The notes under the pieces were generated by a model. The model had not been told where the DNA came from, did no database searches, and worked only from the letters and a program-made list of their open reading frames with translations. A stretch of 43,004 bases of DNA from a virus: the IMG/VR virus record IMGVR_UViG_3300009168_000032, positions 1-43,004 of that record, one strand, 5' to 3'. Position 1 is the first letter of the stretch; every line of letters starts with the position of its first letter. Positions 5,397 through 39,785 of the stretch are shown in pieces. The position numbers and the translations under genes were made by a program.

Positions 5397-5672
5397 TCAA
5401 GCCGTAGGGGGAGTTAGGTGGTCGGCTACCACGGGTCGACGCTTCGCCTTACGCGTTCGCACCCCATGCGAGAGGCCGAGCTGTGCCATCAGCCGCAGCA
5501 ACATGACGGTCGCGGGTGGGACGTTAGCCTCGCCGCTGATGTAGCGCGCGCTGGTGCGCTGCGAGACGCCAAGAAAGCGTGCTGCGGAGGACTGGTTCAG
5601 GCCCAAGGCAGTGATCGTCCGATCATAATCGCGCGGCGACATTGTCCGGTTAGTGCGCCAACTCGTATCCAT
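5397..5672 (-). CDS. XRE-like helix-turn-helix transcriptional regulator
   Basis: 91 residues from the ATG at 5672, chosen because GAGG lies 6 nt upstream and because a promoter -10 (5706-5701) overlaps any longer start at 5702. The segment DYDRTITALGLNQSSAARFLGVSQRTSARYISG is a lambda-repressor/XRE-type HTH (about residues 15-47), followed by NVPPATVMLLRLMAQLGL, common in short phage and toxin-antitoxin regulators. It is transcribed divergently from the early operon and is well placed to bind the inverted repeat between the two promoters. No peptidase or dimerisation domain is visible, so it is Cro- rather than CI-like in size. Confidence 0.8.
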   Translation of the reverse strand: MDTSWRTNRTMSPRDYDRTITALGLNQSSAARFLGVSQRTSARYISGEANVPPATVMLLRLMAQLGLSHGVRTRKAKRRPVVADHLTPPTA

Positions 5673-5700
5673 AGTGAGCCTCATCCTATTGCTGCGGCTC

Positions 5701-5728
5701 AAGATAAACTTTTCTGAAAATATGTCAA
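5701..5728 (-). promoter_or_regulatory. Promoter of the XRE-like regulator
   Basis: On the minus strand TTGACA (5728-5723), 16-nt spacer, TATCTT (5706-5701). Predicted start of transcription lies near 5694, about 22 nt before the regulator ATG. Confidence 0.6.
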
Positions 5729-17062: not shown

Positions 17063-17081
17063 GTCATCCTTCATGTCGGGT
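17052..17081 (-). repeat. Duplicated translation-start block, copy 2
   Basis: Second copy of the initiation block seen at 16744-16773. It abuts the stop of the GcrA-like gene and begins the 99-aa copy B gene. Confidence 0.85.
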
Positions 17082-17542
17082 CAACGCGTGCCGCGCGGGT
17101 AGACCACGTGCTCGTGATGCGGACACCAGGGCGAATGCCGCCGGGTGGTGTTGCCACAGTAGGCGTAAGGCGGACGTTCACCAAACGGGTAGTGACAGAC
17201 GCCGCGCTCGAGCTGGTAAATCGTGATCCGGCCGCTCGAAGCCGGCAGTACCGGCGGCTCGATGCGCCAGCCCGGCAGCACCGGCGCGACAACCTCCGCG
17301 GCAGGCACTAAGTGCGGGGTAGTTAGTGTCCGCTTTTTGCGCTTAGGGGGTGGTGGCATGACACGCGGGCGCGTCTCCAGGCCGAGCCGTCTTGCCTTAC
17401 CAATGCAGGCGTTTTTGGTCAGTTTGACGCCAAACTCGTGGCTAAGTGTCTTGGCAATCTCTGAAAATGGCCGCTTGCCGCCGTTGTGCAGCGCCTTGAA
17501 ACGCGCGATCAGATGGTCGTCCCAGTCAACTCCGGCGGGCAT
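17081..17542 (-). CDS. GcrA-like cell-cycle regulator
   Basis: 153 residues. The N terminus WDDHLIARFKALHNGG..FSEIAKTLSHEFG followed by KNACIGKARRLGLETRPR matches the helix-turn-helix of GcrA (family pattern: W..E....L..LW..G.S...IA..LG....RNA.IGK..RLGL). The C terminus has CHYPFGE...YAYCG....HSPWCPHH, the cysteine/histidine block of GcrA (C116, C129, C140, H143). In host cells GcrA binds sigma70-RNA polymerase and activates promoters carrying CcrM-methylated GANTC sites. A phage copy could redirect transcription to phage promoters or hold the host in a replicative state; this use is inference. Overlaps the upstream gene by 17 nt. Confidence 0.85.
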   Translation of the reverse strand: MPAGVDWDDHLIARFKALHNGGKRPFSEIAKTLSHEFGVKLTKNACIGKARRLGLETRPRVMPPPPKRKKRTLTTPHLVPAAEVVAPVLPGWRIEPPVLPASSGRITIYQLERGVCHYPFGERPPYAYCGNTTRRHSPWCPHHEHVVYPRGTR

Positions 17543-34840: not shown

Positions 34841-35152
34841 TCAGCCTGACCGTGCGCGATATCCTGCCCTAACCTTCTCCCGTGCGATCTTGAGCGCCTC
34901 GCGGCGCGCTTGCTTGGCGCCAAGACTGGCGCGCTGCTTCGGCTTGACCTTCTCGGTTCCCACCTCGGTGAGCCCGTGGGCGCGCCCGACCGCGCGAAAG
35001 GCCGCCTTGGAGGTGTAGAACCGGCCGTCGACCTGCTCTGTAGCTGGCATTTCGTCCGAAATCACGTACGGAAGCGACAGATCGCTGCGCGCGACACCAA
35101 TTCGTCGCTTTTCCACGACCCAGCGGTTCGGTGCAATCTCGATCAGTGTCAT
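34841..35152 (-). CDS. Conserved phage hypothetical protein (103 aa)
   Basis: ARSDLSLPYVISDEMPATEQ then VDGRFYTSKAAFRAVGRAHGL is a pattern I know from short hypothetical proteins near scaffold genes in podovirus-like phages. The C-terminal 35 residues are basic and helical. ATGA overlap with the tailspike gene. A perfect inverted repeat ACGGTCAG-C-CTGACCGT (34837-34853) covers its stop codon. Confidence 0.65.
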   Translation of the reverse strand: MTLIEIAPNRWVVEKRRIGVARSDLSLPYVISDEMPATEQVDGRFYTSKAAFRAVGRAHGLTEVGTEKVKPKQRASLGAKQARREALKIAREKVRAGYRARSG

Positions 35153-36183
35153 ATGTTCTGCGCCACCGTGCCGCTGTAGCCGGTTAAGAGGCTGGCGTTG
35201 GTGAGGGACTTACAACGGAGGTAGAGCGTGCCCCCGGTGCCAGTAATGACGTGGTTGCTCTCGACGCCCTCGATCGACACTTGACCGCCGGTAATGTTGG
35301 CCAAGACCCTGGGCGGGGTGGTGCTGCCGGTCTGAAGCAGTGAGCGCACCGTCACAATGCCGTTGGTACACTGCAGAAATGCGTAGCTGGGATCGTTATC
35401 CGGCTCCGTACGTCCACCGATCACCGCAACTGGACGACCACTGTCCACTTTGACGTCGAACACATTGCCGGCAAGGGACGGCTGAATGACGTGCAGCGAG
35501 CCACCGGCGCTCCAGTAGGCCGCCGTGGTGCATCCGGTAGCGCCGCCGCCGAGGGTCGTGTTGTTAATCGCCTGCGCCCCGTGCGCCTTGATGGCGTAGG
35601 TGTGCGGCGCGCCGTTGAGGAAACACATCTCGAAGAGATTGTTGTGTCCCTGATAGCCAGAGCCCGCGATAAGGATCCCCGCCGCGAAGTTCTCAAACAG
35701 GATGTTGCGGAAGGTGTTGTCGTGTAGCCCGTCGCCGCCCGCGACATTGTCCCAGTCCAGATCAATCATCGGGCTGTTGGAGCCACCACCGAGAAACCGC
35801 AGGTTCTCCACCGTGAGATACGACGCGCCGTTGATGTCCAGCGCCGTGTTGCCATCCATCTGCTTTATGATGGTCGCGGCGGGGCCTGCGCCGTAGATGC
35901 GCCCGCCCACCACGCGGGTGAGGTTGAGCGTGCCGTTGATCCGGTAGACCCCATTCGGGAAGAACACTTGTCGATTGGTCAGGGCTCCAGCCGACCCGTG
36001 CGGGCTGCTGGCTACTCCGAACGCGGCATTGAGGGCATCCTGTACCTTCGGCGTATCATCAAAACTGTCGTCGCCCTTCGCGCCGAAGTCTTTCACGTTG
36101 ATGATATCGGCGAGCCGATCGGGGAGCGTGCGCGCGGTGGACGCGCCAGTCGCGGGGAAGGCGTAGGCAGCAAACGCTGGCAT
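35149..36183 (-). CDS. Tailspike / beta-helix protein B (344 aa)
   Basis: NVKDFGAKGDDSFDDTPKVQ (about 28-48) is the entry motif of the pectate-lyase-like superfamily, followed by VFFPNGVYRINGTLNLTRVV and right-handed beta-helix rungs (LTVENLRFLGGGSNSPMIDL, HNTFRN-type turns). Tailspikes of this fold bind and often cut host polysaccharide; catalytic acids cannot be assigned by eye. Shares its N-terminal 60 residues by pattern with the 443-aa paralogue upstream, suggesting the same virion attachment point. Confidence 0.8.
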   Translation of the reverse strand: MPAFAAYAFPATGASTARTLPDRLADIINVKDFGAKGDDSFDDTPKVQDALNAAFGVASSPHGSAGALTNRQVFFPNGVYRINGTLNLTRVVGGRIYGAGPAATIIKQMDGNTALDINGASYLTVENLRFLGGGSNSPMIDLDWDNVAGGDGLHDNTFRNILFENFAAGILIAGSGYQGHNNLFEMCFLNGAPHTYAIKAHGAQAINNTTLGGGATGCTTAAYWSAGGSLHVIQPSLAGNVFDVKVDSGRPVAVIGGRTEPDNDPSYAFLQCTNGIVTVRSLLQTGSTTPPRVLANITGGQVSIEGVESNHVITGTGGTLYLRCKSLTNASLLTGYSGTVAQNI

Positions 36184-37514
36184 TAGATGAGCTCCCTGAC
36201 GTTTGATGACACGCTGTGTGTCCCGCTCCCGTCCGATGACGTGTTGATTGCCGCTCCATTGGGCGTGGCAGACACCGTAAAGCTGTTCGTGTTGAGGATG
36301 GACCTGATGTAATAGATCACACCGGGGAGCAGCCCAGTCGGAAGTGCGCCGGTGGTCTTAAACGCCACGCCAGTCTTGAACACTCTACCGTGGGACGGCC
36401 ACCCGATGACGGCAGGGCTGGCGTTGCTGATCGTAACGGCGGTGGTAAAGCCACAATCAATCGGCGCGGCATTCAAGAAGCTAGTCCCGCGCACGTAGGC
36501 GATGTGGTCAACCGGGCCGCCGATGAGCTTGCTATTTGCGCCGCAGAGGCAGCCATCGATGGCGATGATCGCGCGGTCTTGGTCGAGACCAACTAACCCA
36601 TTCCAGATGCCGCCGACAGAGCTGGGGTTGTGGTAGAACGACATGATCGCACCGGGGCCGATCAGGCAGACGTTCGGACTGGTGCTGTAGCCTCCGATGA
36701 TCGTCGGGCACTCGTTTTGCTTGACGTGAACATCGATCTGAGAGTTGTTCTCGAACCAGCACCCGAGCACGAGATTGATCGCGCCGGATGGCACGCCGAT
36801 GCCCTGGATGCCGTTTTTGAACGCGCAGCGCAGGAAAGTGTAGTTCAAGACGTTGTAGCCGCTAACGATAACGCCGCGGTCATTACCGTCGAACAGGCAC
36901 CCCTCAAACAGCTGCTCTGATCCCGTCGCGCCCGTGCCGTTGCCGGTGGCGAGGAACCCGTCGCCGGTGTTGGCGCCGGTGTGCGCGCCAATGAAGCCGC
37001 AGTCGCGCCAGGCAATGCCGGTTCCGTCATTGTTGATGCCGGGGGCGTTCATCAGCTGCACGCCGACGGCCGCGTTGCTGCCGGTGCAATCGAACGTGAT
37101 GCCGGCGACCTCCGAATAGGTCACGGTCCTGAGCGTCAACAGCGAGGTCAGCGGCCCCGCCTCGCCACCGCCGGGAAGGCCAGAGTTCGGACCGACATAA
37201 CGCAATCGCGTCTGCTTCTGCCCCATGCCGCGCAGGCGCGCACCGGCGACGTGGTTCAAGAACAGCTGTTGGTCGATCCGATACTCTCCGTTCGGAAGCA
37301 CCACCAATCGATTTAGCCCGACGTTGCTGTTCGGCGCGCTCGCCGGCCCGTAGGCCACATCGAGTGCGGTCTGAATAGCCGCGCCATCGTTGTCGATGCC
37401 GTTGCCCTTCGCGCCATAGTCCTTGACGTTGACGGCATCCGCCAAAACGTCAGTGACATCGCGCGCGGTCGGCGCGCCGGTCGCGGCAACCAGATGGTCG
37501 ACAAAATAGCCCAT
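36183..37514 (-). CDS. Tailspike / beta-helix protein A (443 aa)
   Basis: N terminus ATGAPTARDVTDVLADAVNVKDYGAKGNGID matches in pattern the paralogue (ATGASTARTLPDRLADIINVKDFGAKGDD). Then RLVVLPNGEYRIDQQLFLNH and beta-helix rungs such as EVAGITFDCTGSNAAVGVQL and LFEGCLFDGNDRGVIVSGYN. The last 90 residues (SPAVIGWPSHGRVFKTGVAF, YYIRSILNTNSFTVSATPNG) form a separate beta domain like those that sit at spike tips. Likely receptor-binding polysaccharide depolymerase or binder. TAATG coupling to the next spike. Confidence 0.8.
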   Translation of the reverse strand: MGYFVDHLVAATGAPTARDVTDVLADAVNVKDYGAKGNGIDNDGAAIQTALDVAYGPASAPNSNVGLNRLVVLPNGEYRIDQQLFLNHVAGARLRGMGQKQTRLRYVGPNSGLPGGGEAGPLTSLLTLRTVTYSEVAGITFDCTGSNAAVGVQLMNAPGINNDGTGIAWRDCGFIGAHTGANTGDGFLATGNGTGATGSEQLFEGCLFDGNDRGVIVSGYNVLNYTFLRCAFKNGIQGIGVPSGAINLVLGCWFENNSQIDVHVKQNECPTIIGGYSTSPNVCLIGPGAIMSFYHNPSSVGGIWNGLVGLDQDRAIIAIDGCLCGANSKLIGGPVDHIAYVRGTSFLNAAPIDCGFTTAVTISNASPAVIGWPSHGRVFKTGVAFKTTGALPTGLLPGVIYYIRSILNTNSFTVSATPNGAAINTSSDGSGTHSVSSNVRELI

Positions 37515-39359
37515 TTATCCACTCGCTAAGTAGTCGACCAGGTGAGCGTCCATGTTGGCATCTTGCGCCCCGCTGAACTTAATCAGCCAGTGTCCGCCTT
37601 CGACAAACACTGCATCGACATCATTGGCGGTGATGAGATAATTACCCGAGAGAGCCGAATTGTTCAGCGTACCGTTCGCAAGCGTGCCATTTATGCGGAG
37701 CGATGATCCGTTCGTATTCGTCCCGTCGTTGATGGCAATAAACCGCTCTATTGTGTTGATGGCATGCGGCGGACGCGGGAAAATATACGTACCTTGATCA
37801 GGGGGCATGAAGAAGACGCCACCACTCCCCGGTATCTGAACAAGATTGCCGAAATTGAACGTCAGTTCGTTCGCTGGGATCAAACACACATGGACAAACG
37901 TAAACGGAGGAGCAGATGTCGAGCCACCCGCCATTGTGAAAACGATGCCGTGGTTATTTGTGGCCTTAATACTGGGAAGCGTCCCGCCCGTACCGATACT
38001 ATTAACCTGCAATTCACCTTCATCAGCATTGTTGAAGTGACGCCCATTGCCGGTCTGGTCATATAACTTCTTAACGTAAGGCGTGCCGTGCGTTGTGCTC
38101 CATGTCGCCACTGCGGCCTCGTCCAACAGACCGTTGGCCAGCACATTGATGACTTGAGTACTGGCGCCAGTACCGTCAACGATGTCGATGGCCGGGCCAC
38201 CCGACGCCGCATAGGCCGCACTGTAGGCCCGTAACCCAACCCACCAGGCTGCGCCCGGGACAACATCGCCGGGACCGAGATAGGTCACGGCCGGCGGCGC
38301 GATCGGCGTTGCCGTGACATTCGAGTGCGCCGTTCCACTGCCGGCCGCGTTGGTCGCCGTCACGATGCAAAAGATGAAGTCGCCGACATCACCGGCGACG
38401 AGCGTGTAGGTGGCCGACGTTGCGCCGACGATCGGGTCGCCCAGCGGCTTGCCGCTGCCGTCGGTCAGGATACCGCCCGAGCCATCATCGAGTGCCTGGT
38501 ACCACTGCCGCGCATAGGTGATCGGCGCAGTGCCGGTCCAAGTGCCGGTGCTGCAGGAGAGAATTTGACCCTGGATCAGCGTGCCGGTGACTGCCGGCGC
38601 AAGAGTGTTGACCGGCGCGGTTAACACTTCCGAAGTATCGTTCAGCACGGTGACCGTAATGGTCTGCGGCGTGCTCATGTTGGCGGCAAGATCGGTAGCG
38701 GACACCTGCACCTGGTAGGTGTTGTTCGCGTCACTGTCGTCAGGAGCCTCGAAGTCTTTGGTGCCGTTGCCGGCCCAGCGCAATGTGCTGCCGGAGATCT
38801 CAAAGCGAGCCATGTCAACGCCGCCAACAATCACAAACGTCGCCGGCTCGTTGGCGGTGAGCACGTGCGTCAGCACCATGTTCTCGACGTTGCTCACGGT
38901 GTTGGACGAGGTGATGATCGGCGCAGTATCGTCGACGTTGATGACCAGAATGGTGAACGTCACCGGGCTCACCGCCGGCGTTAGGCCCGAGACACTGACC
39001 GTGACGTTGTGGAACGTCGCCGCCTCGTAGTTGAGCCCTACACTGGTGCGCAACGTATTACCGGAGATATTGAACTTGCCGCCGGCGCTGTCGGTCAGCG
39101 TATAGGTTGGCGTGCCGGTGGTGCCGGGCGTTACCGACAAAGTGCCCACCGTCGTGTTCGCCGCTAAGTTCTCTGCTACGCTGTTGCCGGTCAGCTGCAG
39201 GGTCGGACCGAAGGTAAGACCAGACACCGGCAGGCCATTGGTCACCTGCGTCACTGCCAGGCCGAAGCCGTTGGTGGCGATCTCCATCGGCACGCCATAG
39301 GCCGAAATCGTGACGGGGAGCCCGCCCGACGGCTTGATGACAACTGGTATCCCCGCCAT
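37515..39359 (-). CDS. Large adhesin with cadherin-like repeats and arabinofuranosidase-type C-terminal domain
   Basis: 614 residues from the ATG at 39359 (GGAG about 10 nt upstream). Order: N-terminal attachment region (IPVVIKPSGGLPVTISAYG); two cadherin-like repeats (about 60-240; SVAENLAANTTVGTLSVTPG, YEAATFHNVTVSVSGL, FEAPDDSDANNTYQVQVSAT); an Ig-like domain (about 250-350; LSCSTGTWTGTAPITYARQW); then GLRAYSAAYAASGGPAIDIV and LLDEAAVATWSTTHGTPYVK leading into KLYDQTGNGRHFNNA. This is the signature I associate with the alpha-L-arabinofuranosidase B catalytic-type (lectin-like) domain. It probably recognises or trims arabinose-containing surface glycans. Confidence 0.75.
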   Translation of the reverse strand: MAGIPVVIKPSGGLPVTISAYGVPMEIATNGFGLAVTQVTNGLPVSGLTFGPTLQLTGNSVAENLAANTTVGTLSVTPGTTGTPTYTLTDSAGGKFNISGNTLRTSVGLNYEAATFHNVTVSVSGLTPAVSPVTFTILVINVDDTAPIITSSNTVSNVENMVLTHVLTANEPATFVIVGGVDMARFEISGSTLRWAGNGTKDFEAPDDSDANNTYQVQVSATDLAANMSTPQTITVTVLNDTSEVLTAPVNTLAPAVTGTLIQGQILSCSTGTWTGTAPITYARQWYQALDDGSGGILTDGSGKPLGDPIVGATSATYTLVAGDVGDFIFCIVTATNAAGSGTAHSNVTATPIAPPAVTYLGPGDVVPGAAWWVGLRAYSAAYAASGGPAIDIVDGTGASTQVINVLANGLLDEAAVATWSTTHGTPYVKKLYDQTGNGRHFNNADEGELQVNSIGTGGTLPSIKATNNHGIVFTMAGGSTSAPPFTFVHVCLIPANELTFNFGNLVQIPGSGGVFFMPPDQGTYIFPRPPHAINTIERFIAINDGTNTNGSSLRINGTLANGTLNNSALSGNYLITANDVDAVFVEGGHWLIKFSGAQDANMDAHLVDYLASG

Positions 39360-39560
39360 AGCGCCGTTCTCCGTAAATGAGCGGGGAGCAGTGGGACTCG
39401 AACCCACCGGCTCCCCTAGCGAGGGTGACCGTCCAAGAGGGACAGCTTACGTTGTCGGACTGGCCGGCTTGCGGCCCAGCCTTGCGGCTGAAGTCACGCC
39501 GATGCCTGTAGCGCTGTCCTGCACTGAGGCACCGTTCGCCCTTGCGGGCCCTCGTTTCTC
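39359..39560 (-). ncRNA. Structured 5' leader with tRNA-like acceptor/T-arm minihelix (candidate ncRNA)
   Basis: About 200 nt with no gene between the Acb2-like stop and the adhesin ATG. Minus strand, 5' to 3': hairpin GCCC-GCAA-GGGC (39549-39538), hairpin CAGCC-GCAA-GGCTG (39490-39477), an overlapping GCAA hairpin (39479-39460), then GGGGAGC (39416-39410)-CG-GTGGG-TTCGAGT-CCCAC-T-GCTCCCC (39389-39383). The last part is a 7-bp stem stacked on a 5-bp stem with a canonical 7-nt T-loop (T54-T-C-R-A-N-Y60), the shape of the upper half of a tRNA. No D or anticodon arm and no CCA are found. The adhesin ribosome-binding site follows 12 nt later. Confidence 0.55.
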
Positions 39561-39785
39561 CTATTTTCCGGCCGTTGCCGCCTTCACGGCCCACATCGCG
39601 GCGTCTTCAGCGTGGGTTTGCGCCAGGGCAAGACAGCGATGCACCTCACCATCGCCGTTCTTGAGCGCCTCGCACTGGTCGATGAACTTGGCGGCGGTGC
39701 CCTTGAGCATGTCCACCGCCGAATTGTTGCTCGGATTAAAGGACGCGCGCACGCGGCGCGCGCCTAAGCTTAGTTCTTCGCTCAT
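39561..39785 (-). CDS. Acb2-like anti-CBASS protein (candidate cyclic-nucleotide sponge)
   Basis: 74 residues, all helical after a short N terminus. GARRVRASFNPSNNSAVDML with a Lys and FIDQCEAL in helix 1, then HRCLALAQTHAEDAAMWAVK. The C-terminal pattern R50-x-L-A-x3-T57-x6-M64-x3-K68-A agrees with the Acb2/Tad1 hairpin family as I know it (RWLAIGKT.....GFMAL.RA). Acb2 forms oligomers that soak up cyclic di- and trinucleotides made by CBASS enzymes, shielding the phage from abortive infection. The match is by eye only; the N-terminal FNPS motif is typical of a subgroup seen beside virion genes. Confidence 0.6.
   Translation of the reverse strand: MSEELSLGARRVRASFNPSNNSAVDMLKGTAAKFIDQCEALKNGDGEVHRCLALAQTHAEDAAMWAVKAATAGK

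Follow-up and report, generated by a model that had tools for sequence, protein, structure and literature searches.

A structured RNA element of about 175 bases, whose 3' part copies one half of a tRNA almost perfectly, sits between two closely packed genes of a soil phage. Because it recurs next to unrelated genes in a few relatives and is missing from most, it resembles an undescribed small RNA unit more than a switch controlling the adhesin-like gene that follows it. That it is a structured non-coding RNA unit is well supported and in our judgment very probable, and its placement in an undescribed family is well supported too. On our best reading, to which we assign a probability of roughly 0.45, it is a self-contained unit of this kind that resides in intergenic gaps of phage operons and is probably cut by RNase P or RNase Z at a tRNA-like minihelix near its 3' end.

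Architecture of the RNA element

All positions refer to the window, the whole stretch of DNA that was analysed (43,004 nucleotides). As originally predicted, positions 39360-39560 are empty between the stop codon of a 74-aa gene and the ATG of the adhesin gene (39359), with no plausible genes. The features of this locus are as follows, from upstream to downstream.

39561..39785, minus strand: 74-aa gene for an Acb2/Tad1 hairpin-domain protein (PF24729, E 5e-12), upstream neighbour of the element
39556..39561, minus strand: GGAGAA, possibly one member of a pair of 6-bp direct repeats on either side of the element, the right-hand member lying at 39367-39372; suggestive only, with a chance of about 2-3% for one case
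39380..39554, minus strand: whole RNA element, a P1-P4 four-way-junction domain plus the tRNA-like minihelix P5, from concordant MFE folds and a CM match
39550..39554, minus strand: P1 5' strand CGAGG, 6 nt past the stop codon of the upstream gene
39538..39549, minus strand: P2 hairpin GCCC-GCAA-GGGC, predicted fold
39500..39534, minus strand: P3 with an inner stem, predicted fold
39425..39497, minus strand: P4 domain, branched in the window and a simple hairpin in the related loci L083 and L084
39420..39424, minus strand: P1 3' strand CCTCG, which pairs with 39554-39550
39382..39416, minus strand: P5 minihelix including a discriminator-like G, with a 7-bp acceptor-like stem, a bulged C and a 5/6-bp T-stem
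39369..39372, minus strand: Shine-Dalgarno-like GGAG of the adhesin gene, found by sequence inspection and lying outside the RNA element
37515..39359, minus strand: adhesin-like gene with a cadherin-like domain, downstream neighbour of the element

The window, L083 and L084 were folded independently, and their MFE folds agree on the layout, in which P1, P2 with its GCAA loop, P3, P4 and the second strand of P1 are followed by a linker of 1-3 nt ending in A and then by P5. P1 encloses the hairpins, so that the element is larger than the stretch described in the original prediction, and its length ranges from 150 to 180 nt across the phage family. Even without P5 the junction is more stable than shuffled sequences in L084, L083 and the window (z of -4.1, -3.6 and -2.9, respectively); the junction of another carrier, L138, is no better than shuffles (z -0.9) and has no GNRA hairpin. 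The CM matched with E-values of 2.6e-8 in the window and 1.6e-12 in L083. Of the three GCAA-capped hairpins originally proposed, two are present (39549-39538 and 39490-39477), whereas around the third GCAA (39472-39469) the predicted fold has GGCCG-CAAGC-CGGCC (39476-39462) and no GNRA tetraloop.

The 5' side of P5 on the minus strand reads GGGGAGC (39416-39410), an unpaired C and GTGGG (39407-39403), followed by the loop TTCGAGT (39402-39396) and a 3' side of CCCAC (39395-39391), T and GCTCCCC (39389-39383), then GCT. The original description of an acceptor/T-arm minihelix that lacks the D and anticodon arms was right, with a 7-bp stem stacked on a stem of 5/6 bp and capped by a canonical T-loop. 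This loop agrees at every position with the T-loop rule of tRNAs (U54 U55 C56 R57 A58 N59 Y60, with the G53-C61 closing pair), and the fold of P5 reaches -26 kcal/mol (z = -3.65 against shuffles). At the 3' end the sequence encodes GCU instead of CCA. When the window and 84 loci were scanned for minihelices that have 7/7 and 5/5 pairs, the P5 loop and no more than 2 nt separating the two stems, only homologues came up. ARAGORN found no full cloverleaf tRNA in the window or the carriers, in agreement with folds that place no D or anticodon arm around P5, and full tRNA or tmRNA candidates were likewise rejected there.

Covariation in the junction and fixity of the minihelix

An alignment of L084, L082 and L083 fitted to the structure was used to examine covariation. 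In this alignment 99.2% of cells are paired, and eight pairs in P1, P3 and P4 differ at both partners between L083 and L082/L084 yet remain paired; sliding the partners leaves only 0-2 such double-sided changes. The pair count is that of the clean alignment A8, and the count from alignment A4, which includes false matches, was set aside. We conclude from these eight compensatory double changes that the fold is real. P2 also varies while pairing, with GCCC/GGGC in the window, CACC/GGTG in L083 and CACCC/GGGTG in L084.

P5 showed no compensatory changes in the comparison of L083 with L082/L084, because its sequence hardly varies: a single A-to-G change was seen among five carriers. The absence of covariation in relatives, which had been named as grounds for rejecting the structure, therefore applies to the minihelix only, while the rest of the RNA covaries. 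The junction has therefore kept its fold as its sequence drifted, and the minihelix has kept its sequence base by base.

Carriers, empty sites and a relic

Exact searches of IMG/VR with a 26-base stretch from the minihelix matched three contigs, and a fourth, L002/L138, matched with one change. The five carriers (the window, L138, L083, L082 and L084) all belong to one phage family, represent three or four distinct phages and have one copy of the element per record. CCTCG lies at a fixed distance 5' of the minihelix in all of them, and CGAGG directly follows the stop codon of the preceding gene in every carrier whose 5' end is present, the element there beginning 2-6 nt past that codon; the L082 contig ends inside P2.

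The element precedes the adhesin gene in the late operon of the window, L138 and L083, and an SSB-like gene in the early operon of L082 and L084, where the SSB-like gene is itself followed by a Prim-Pol/AAA gene. L082 (an 18.6 kb contig) and L084 are of the same family as the window, with a major capsid protein (MCP) at 82% in L082 and a terminase at 65-66%. About 55 nt and another conserved leader separate the element from the SSB-like gene in both. This second leader (L084:296-345) has a CCGG-type hairpin, is possibly an autoregulatory site and occurs without the element in L285, L263 and L292.

The element is absent from four relatives that have the adhesin family of the window (L005, L249, L036 and L250). 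The gap between stop and start codons in element-free relatives with the same adhesin pair is 0-9 nt, the empty sites reading TAG directly followed by ATG in L005, TAG-CTAGC-ATG in L249 and TAG-GAGCGCGYC-ATG in L036 and L250. A decayed relic was found in L004 (1478-1530), which is closely related to the window (92% for the MCP and 96-100% for several tail proteins); the relic keeps the acceptor hairpin and the Shine-Dalgarno region, has lost the T-arm and P1-P4, and precedes a different gene. Model searches over 29 additional family records gave no further copies, and CM matches in L012 and L014, together with other weak ones inspected in relatives, were dismissed as chance. As judged from the compared loci, the element is optional and changes place within the family, and the comparison shows that it was gained, moved or lost independently of its neighbouring genes.

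Several other features of these phages were recorded. The 74-aa protein of the late operon is a possible anti-CBASS/Thoeris sponge, and its gene is present in L005 and L010 and absent from L138 and L004. The adhesin/pectate-lyase-like segment (window 35149-39560, minus strand) is a variable cassette, wholly absent in L009 and L010 and replaced in L004, L005 and L012. The window also encodes an MqsA/Xre-type antitoxin-like helix-turn-helix protein (5397-5702, minus strand; below Pfam cut-offs) that is kept in many relatives, and one carrier phage has a 2OG-Fe(II) oxygenase-like gene directly after its portal gene (L083:3852-4439, plus strand). The host of the window phage is probably an alphaproteobacterium, because the window encodes a GcrA-like cell-cycle regulator (17081-17542, minus strand; PF07750, E 4e-15) and a Rhizobium phage is the isolate whose capsid is nearest; that isolate lacks the element.

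A proposed processed phage RNA and its alternatives

Among the three ideas put forward originally, the best remains that of a small phage RNA which RNase P or RNase Z would cut. The element would be transcribed along with the operon by read-through, and host tRNA-maturation enzymes would read P5 as the end of a tRNA. RNase P may then cut 5' of GGGGAGC, with a second cut behind the discriminator-like G made by RNase Z or exonucleases, to release a nuclease-resistant RNA that could act in trans or serve the upstream message as a protective 3' end. The search for promoter-like sites on the minus strand between 37000 and 43004 found none, which is in line with operon transcription, though weakly so, as alphaproteobacterial promoters differ. 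The RNase P route is plausible because this enzyme acts on C4 RNA, T4 gene 32 mRNA and polycistronic his mRNA (PMC11143913).

RNase P and other tRNA enzymes recognise shape, not 35 fixed bases. The fixity of P5 among the carriers thus appears to exceed what recognition by tRNA enzymes needs and counts against processing as its sole reason, so that a further, specific partner of P5 is likely. The GCU at the 3' end, the L138 junction and the small number of carriers also weigh against this reading of the element. No gene common to the carriers yet missing from non-carriers was found, and this partner is therefore probably a host factor, or another RNA.

A cis-acting role in mRNA processing or stability, in which cleavage splits the polycistronic message, P1-P4 protects the upstream 3' end and the downstream gene receives a clean 5' end, seems to us rather doubtful. 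RNase III sites in T7 messages have a comparable message-splitting role. The stable fold and its position 2-6 nt after the upstream stop codon would suit such an element, but insertion into a gap of 0-9 nt would give equally tight spacing, the genes on either side are not the same from one carrier to the next, and close relatives that share the gene pair have no such element. RNase P cutting of polycistronic messages is itself known (PMC11143913).

Presence or absence at the same gene junctions, two locations in one family and the relic in L004 would also be expected of a non-autonomous mobile element, in which a trans-supplied factor would recognise the conserved ends and move the RNA, or its DNA. 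In each carrier the element lies between direct repeats of 4-6 bp (GGAGAA, GAGAA, GAGA and AATAC), which hint at insertion but, taken one by one, do not exceed chance. We nevertheless hold this to be unlikely, since chance alone yields repeats of this length in 2-40% of cases, three of them may share one event, there are no clear terminal inverted repeats, only one copy occurs per record, and the interiors of the window and L138 elements are not alike, unlike those of recent copies. A more far-reaching proposal, and an equally improbable one, is a small self-moving phage RNA whose four-way junction and sequence-fixed tRNA minihelix would let it spread in the manner of a SINE or an intron through its fold and tRNA-like 3' end, or else a trans-acting RNA that would seize a host tRNA-handling protein.

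The strict conservation of P5 and its full T-loop consensus could also mean that it imitates a host tRNA end as a decoy, occupying a host protein that targets or handles tRNAs. This appears quite unlikely, as the P5 26-mer was found in none of 398 Pseudomonadota genomes within two mismatches, leaving no matching tRNA 3' end among them, and a pattern covering 24 bases on the 5' side of P5 occurred at one unrelated place only in an 84,980-species genome collection.

The original suggestion of a leader that controls adhesin translation in cis is weakened by the comparison and now very unlikely. P5 ends about 10 nt before the Shine-Dalgarno-like GGAG in the window, and similarly in L138 and L083, but the same element stands before the unrelated SSB-like gene with that gene's own leader in between, L036, L249 and L250 have the adhesin without the element, and no predicted fold hides the Shine-Dalgarno sequence in a shared way. 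Stop-codon readthrough or frameshifting into the adhesin was rejected upon sequence inspection, as the frames differ between carriers, mostly close early and have no shared slippery site.

Least probable of all is a DNA site, either an attP-like relic of a captured tRNA 3' end, as once proposed, or a recombinase core that swaps adhesin cassettes: P5 is a 34-bp imperfect palindrome with 13-bp arms around TTCGAGT and the adhesin segment is variable, but a PF00589 search found no tyrosine integrase in the record (which may be incomplete), confirming the earlier impression, none of the 398 Pseudomonadota genomes has the 26-mer within two mismatches, 3' capture would bring no matching 5' acceptor strand, the junction shows compensatory RNA changes, most swapped cassettes are without the element, and it also occurs in an early operon.

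Significance and relation to known RNAs

Tailed phages are thought to hold almost no non-coding space. Here, a phage family has a folded RNA moved between operons, in which the tRNA half is kept near letter for letter and the rest has drifted, a combination that points to a host factor reading the tRNA-like end. The element provides a compact model for studying how tRNA enzymes are exploited by phages, whether to carve transcripts or to disarm the host, and it adds a new RNA family for modelling.

GenBank phages and plasmids contained no homologue and yielded tRNAs only, and of eight weak CM matches inspected in bacterial genomes, seven were tRNA genes. The junction pattern matched L083, L084 and one coding coincidence only, and a pattern with a fixed acceptor and a free T-stem found no other minihelix. 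Candidate P5 variants with other acceptor stems, sought with patterns of the P1 3' strand and the T-arm, proved to be real tRNAs or chance matches in coding sequence.

Against Rfam 15 families, the window had no match at the gathering score and nothing credible at E<=10. The mascRNA-menRNA family (RF01684), a tRNA-like 3' module on a longer transcript, gave a weak CM match of 15.1 bits on the T-arm, but its gathering score of 42.5 is far above this, and mascRNA is eukaryotic and has a D-side arm. YrlA Y RNA-like (RF02553), a bacterial RNA with a T-arm-like stem, scored 14 bits against a gathering score of 69, and its layout differs. The best cellular CM matches include the 3' half of class II tRNAs (Ser/Leu), such as tRNA-Ser(GCU) with the CCTCGAAAGGGG variable arm and T-arm; 19 of 398 genomes matched at E<=0.05, approximately the number expected by chance, and refolding of the element with a class II variable arm was rejected with a pair probability near 0.

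The C4 antisense RNA of phages P1 and P7 is an RNase P-processed phage RNA (PMC11143913) that resembles the element as an RNA in an operon leader with a tRNA-like feature as a possible RNase P entry, but the two are unrelated in sequence, the element has no Rfam match and no antisense target is known for it. With tRNA acceptor/T-arm minihelices and RNase P model substrates, P5 shares the 7-bp acceptor-like stem, the 5-bp T-stem, the canonical T-loop and single-stranded 5' and 3' flanks, while it differs in its GCU in place of CCA, its one bulged C and its position after a four-way junction in an operon. The predicted shape of P5 fits an RNase P substrate with putative cleavage 5' of the acceptor stem.
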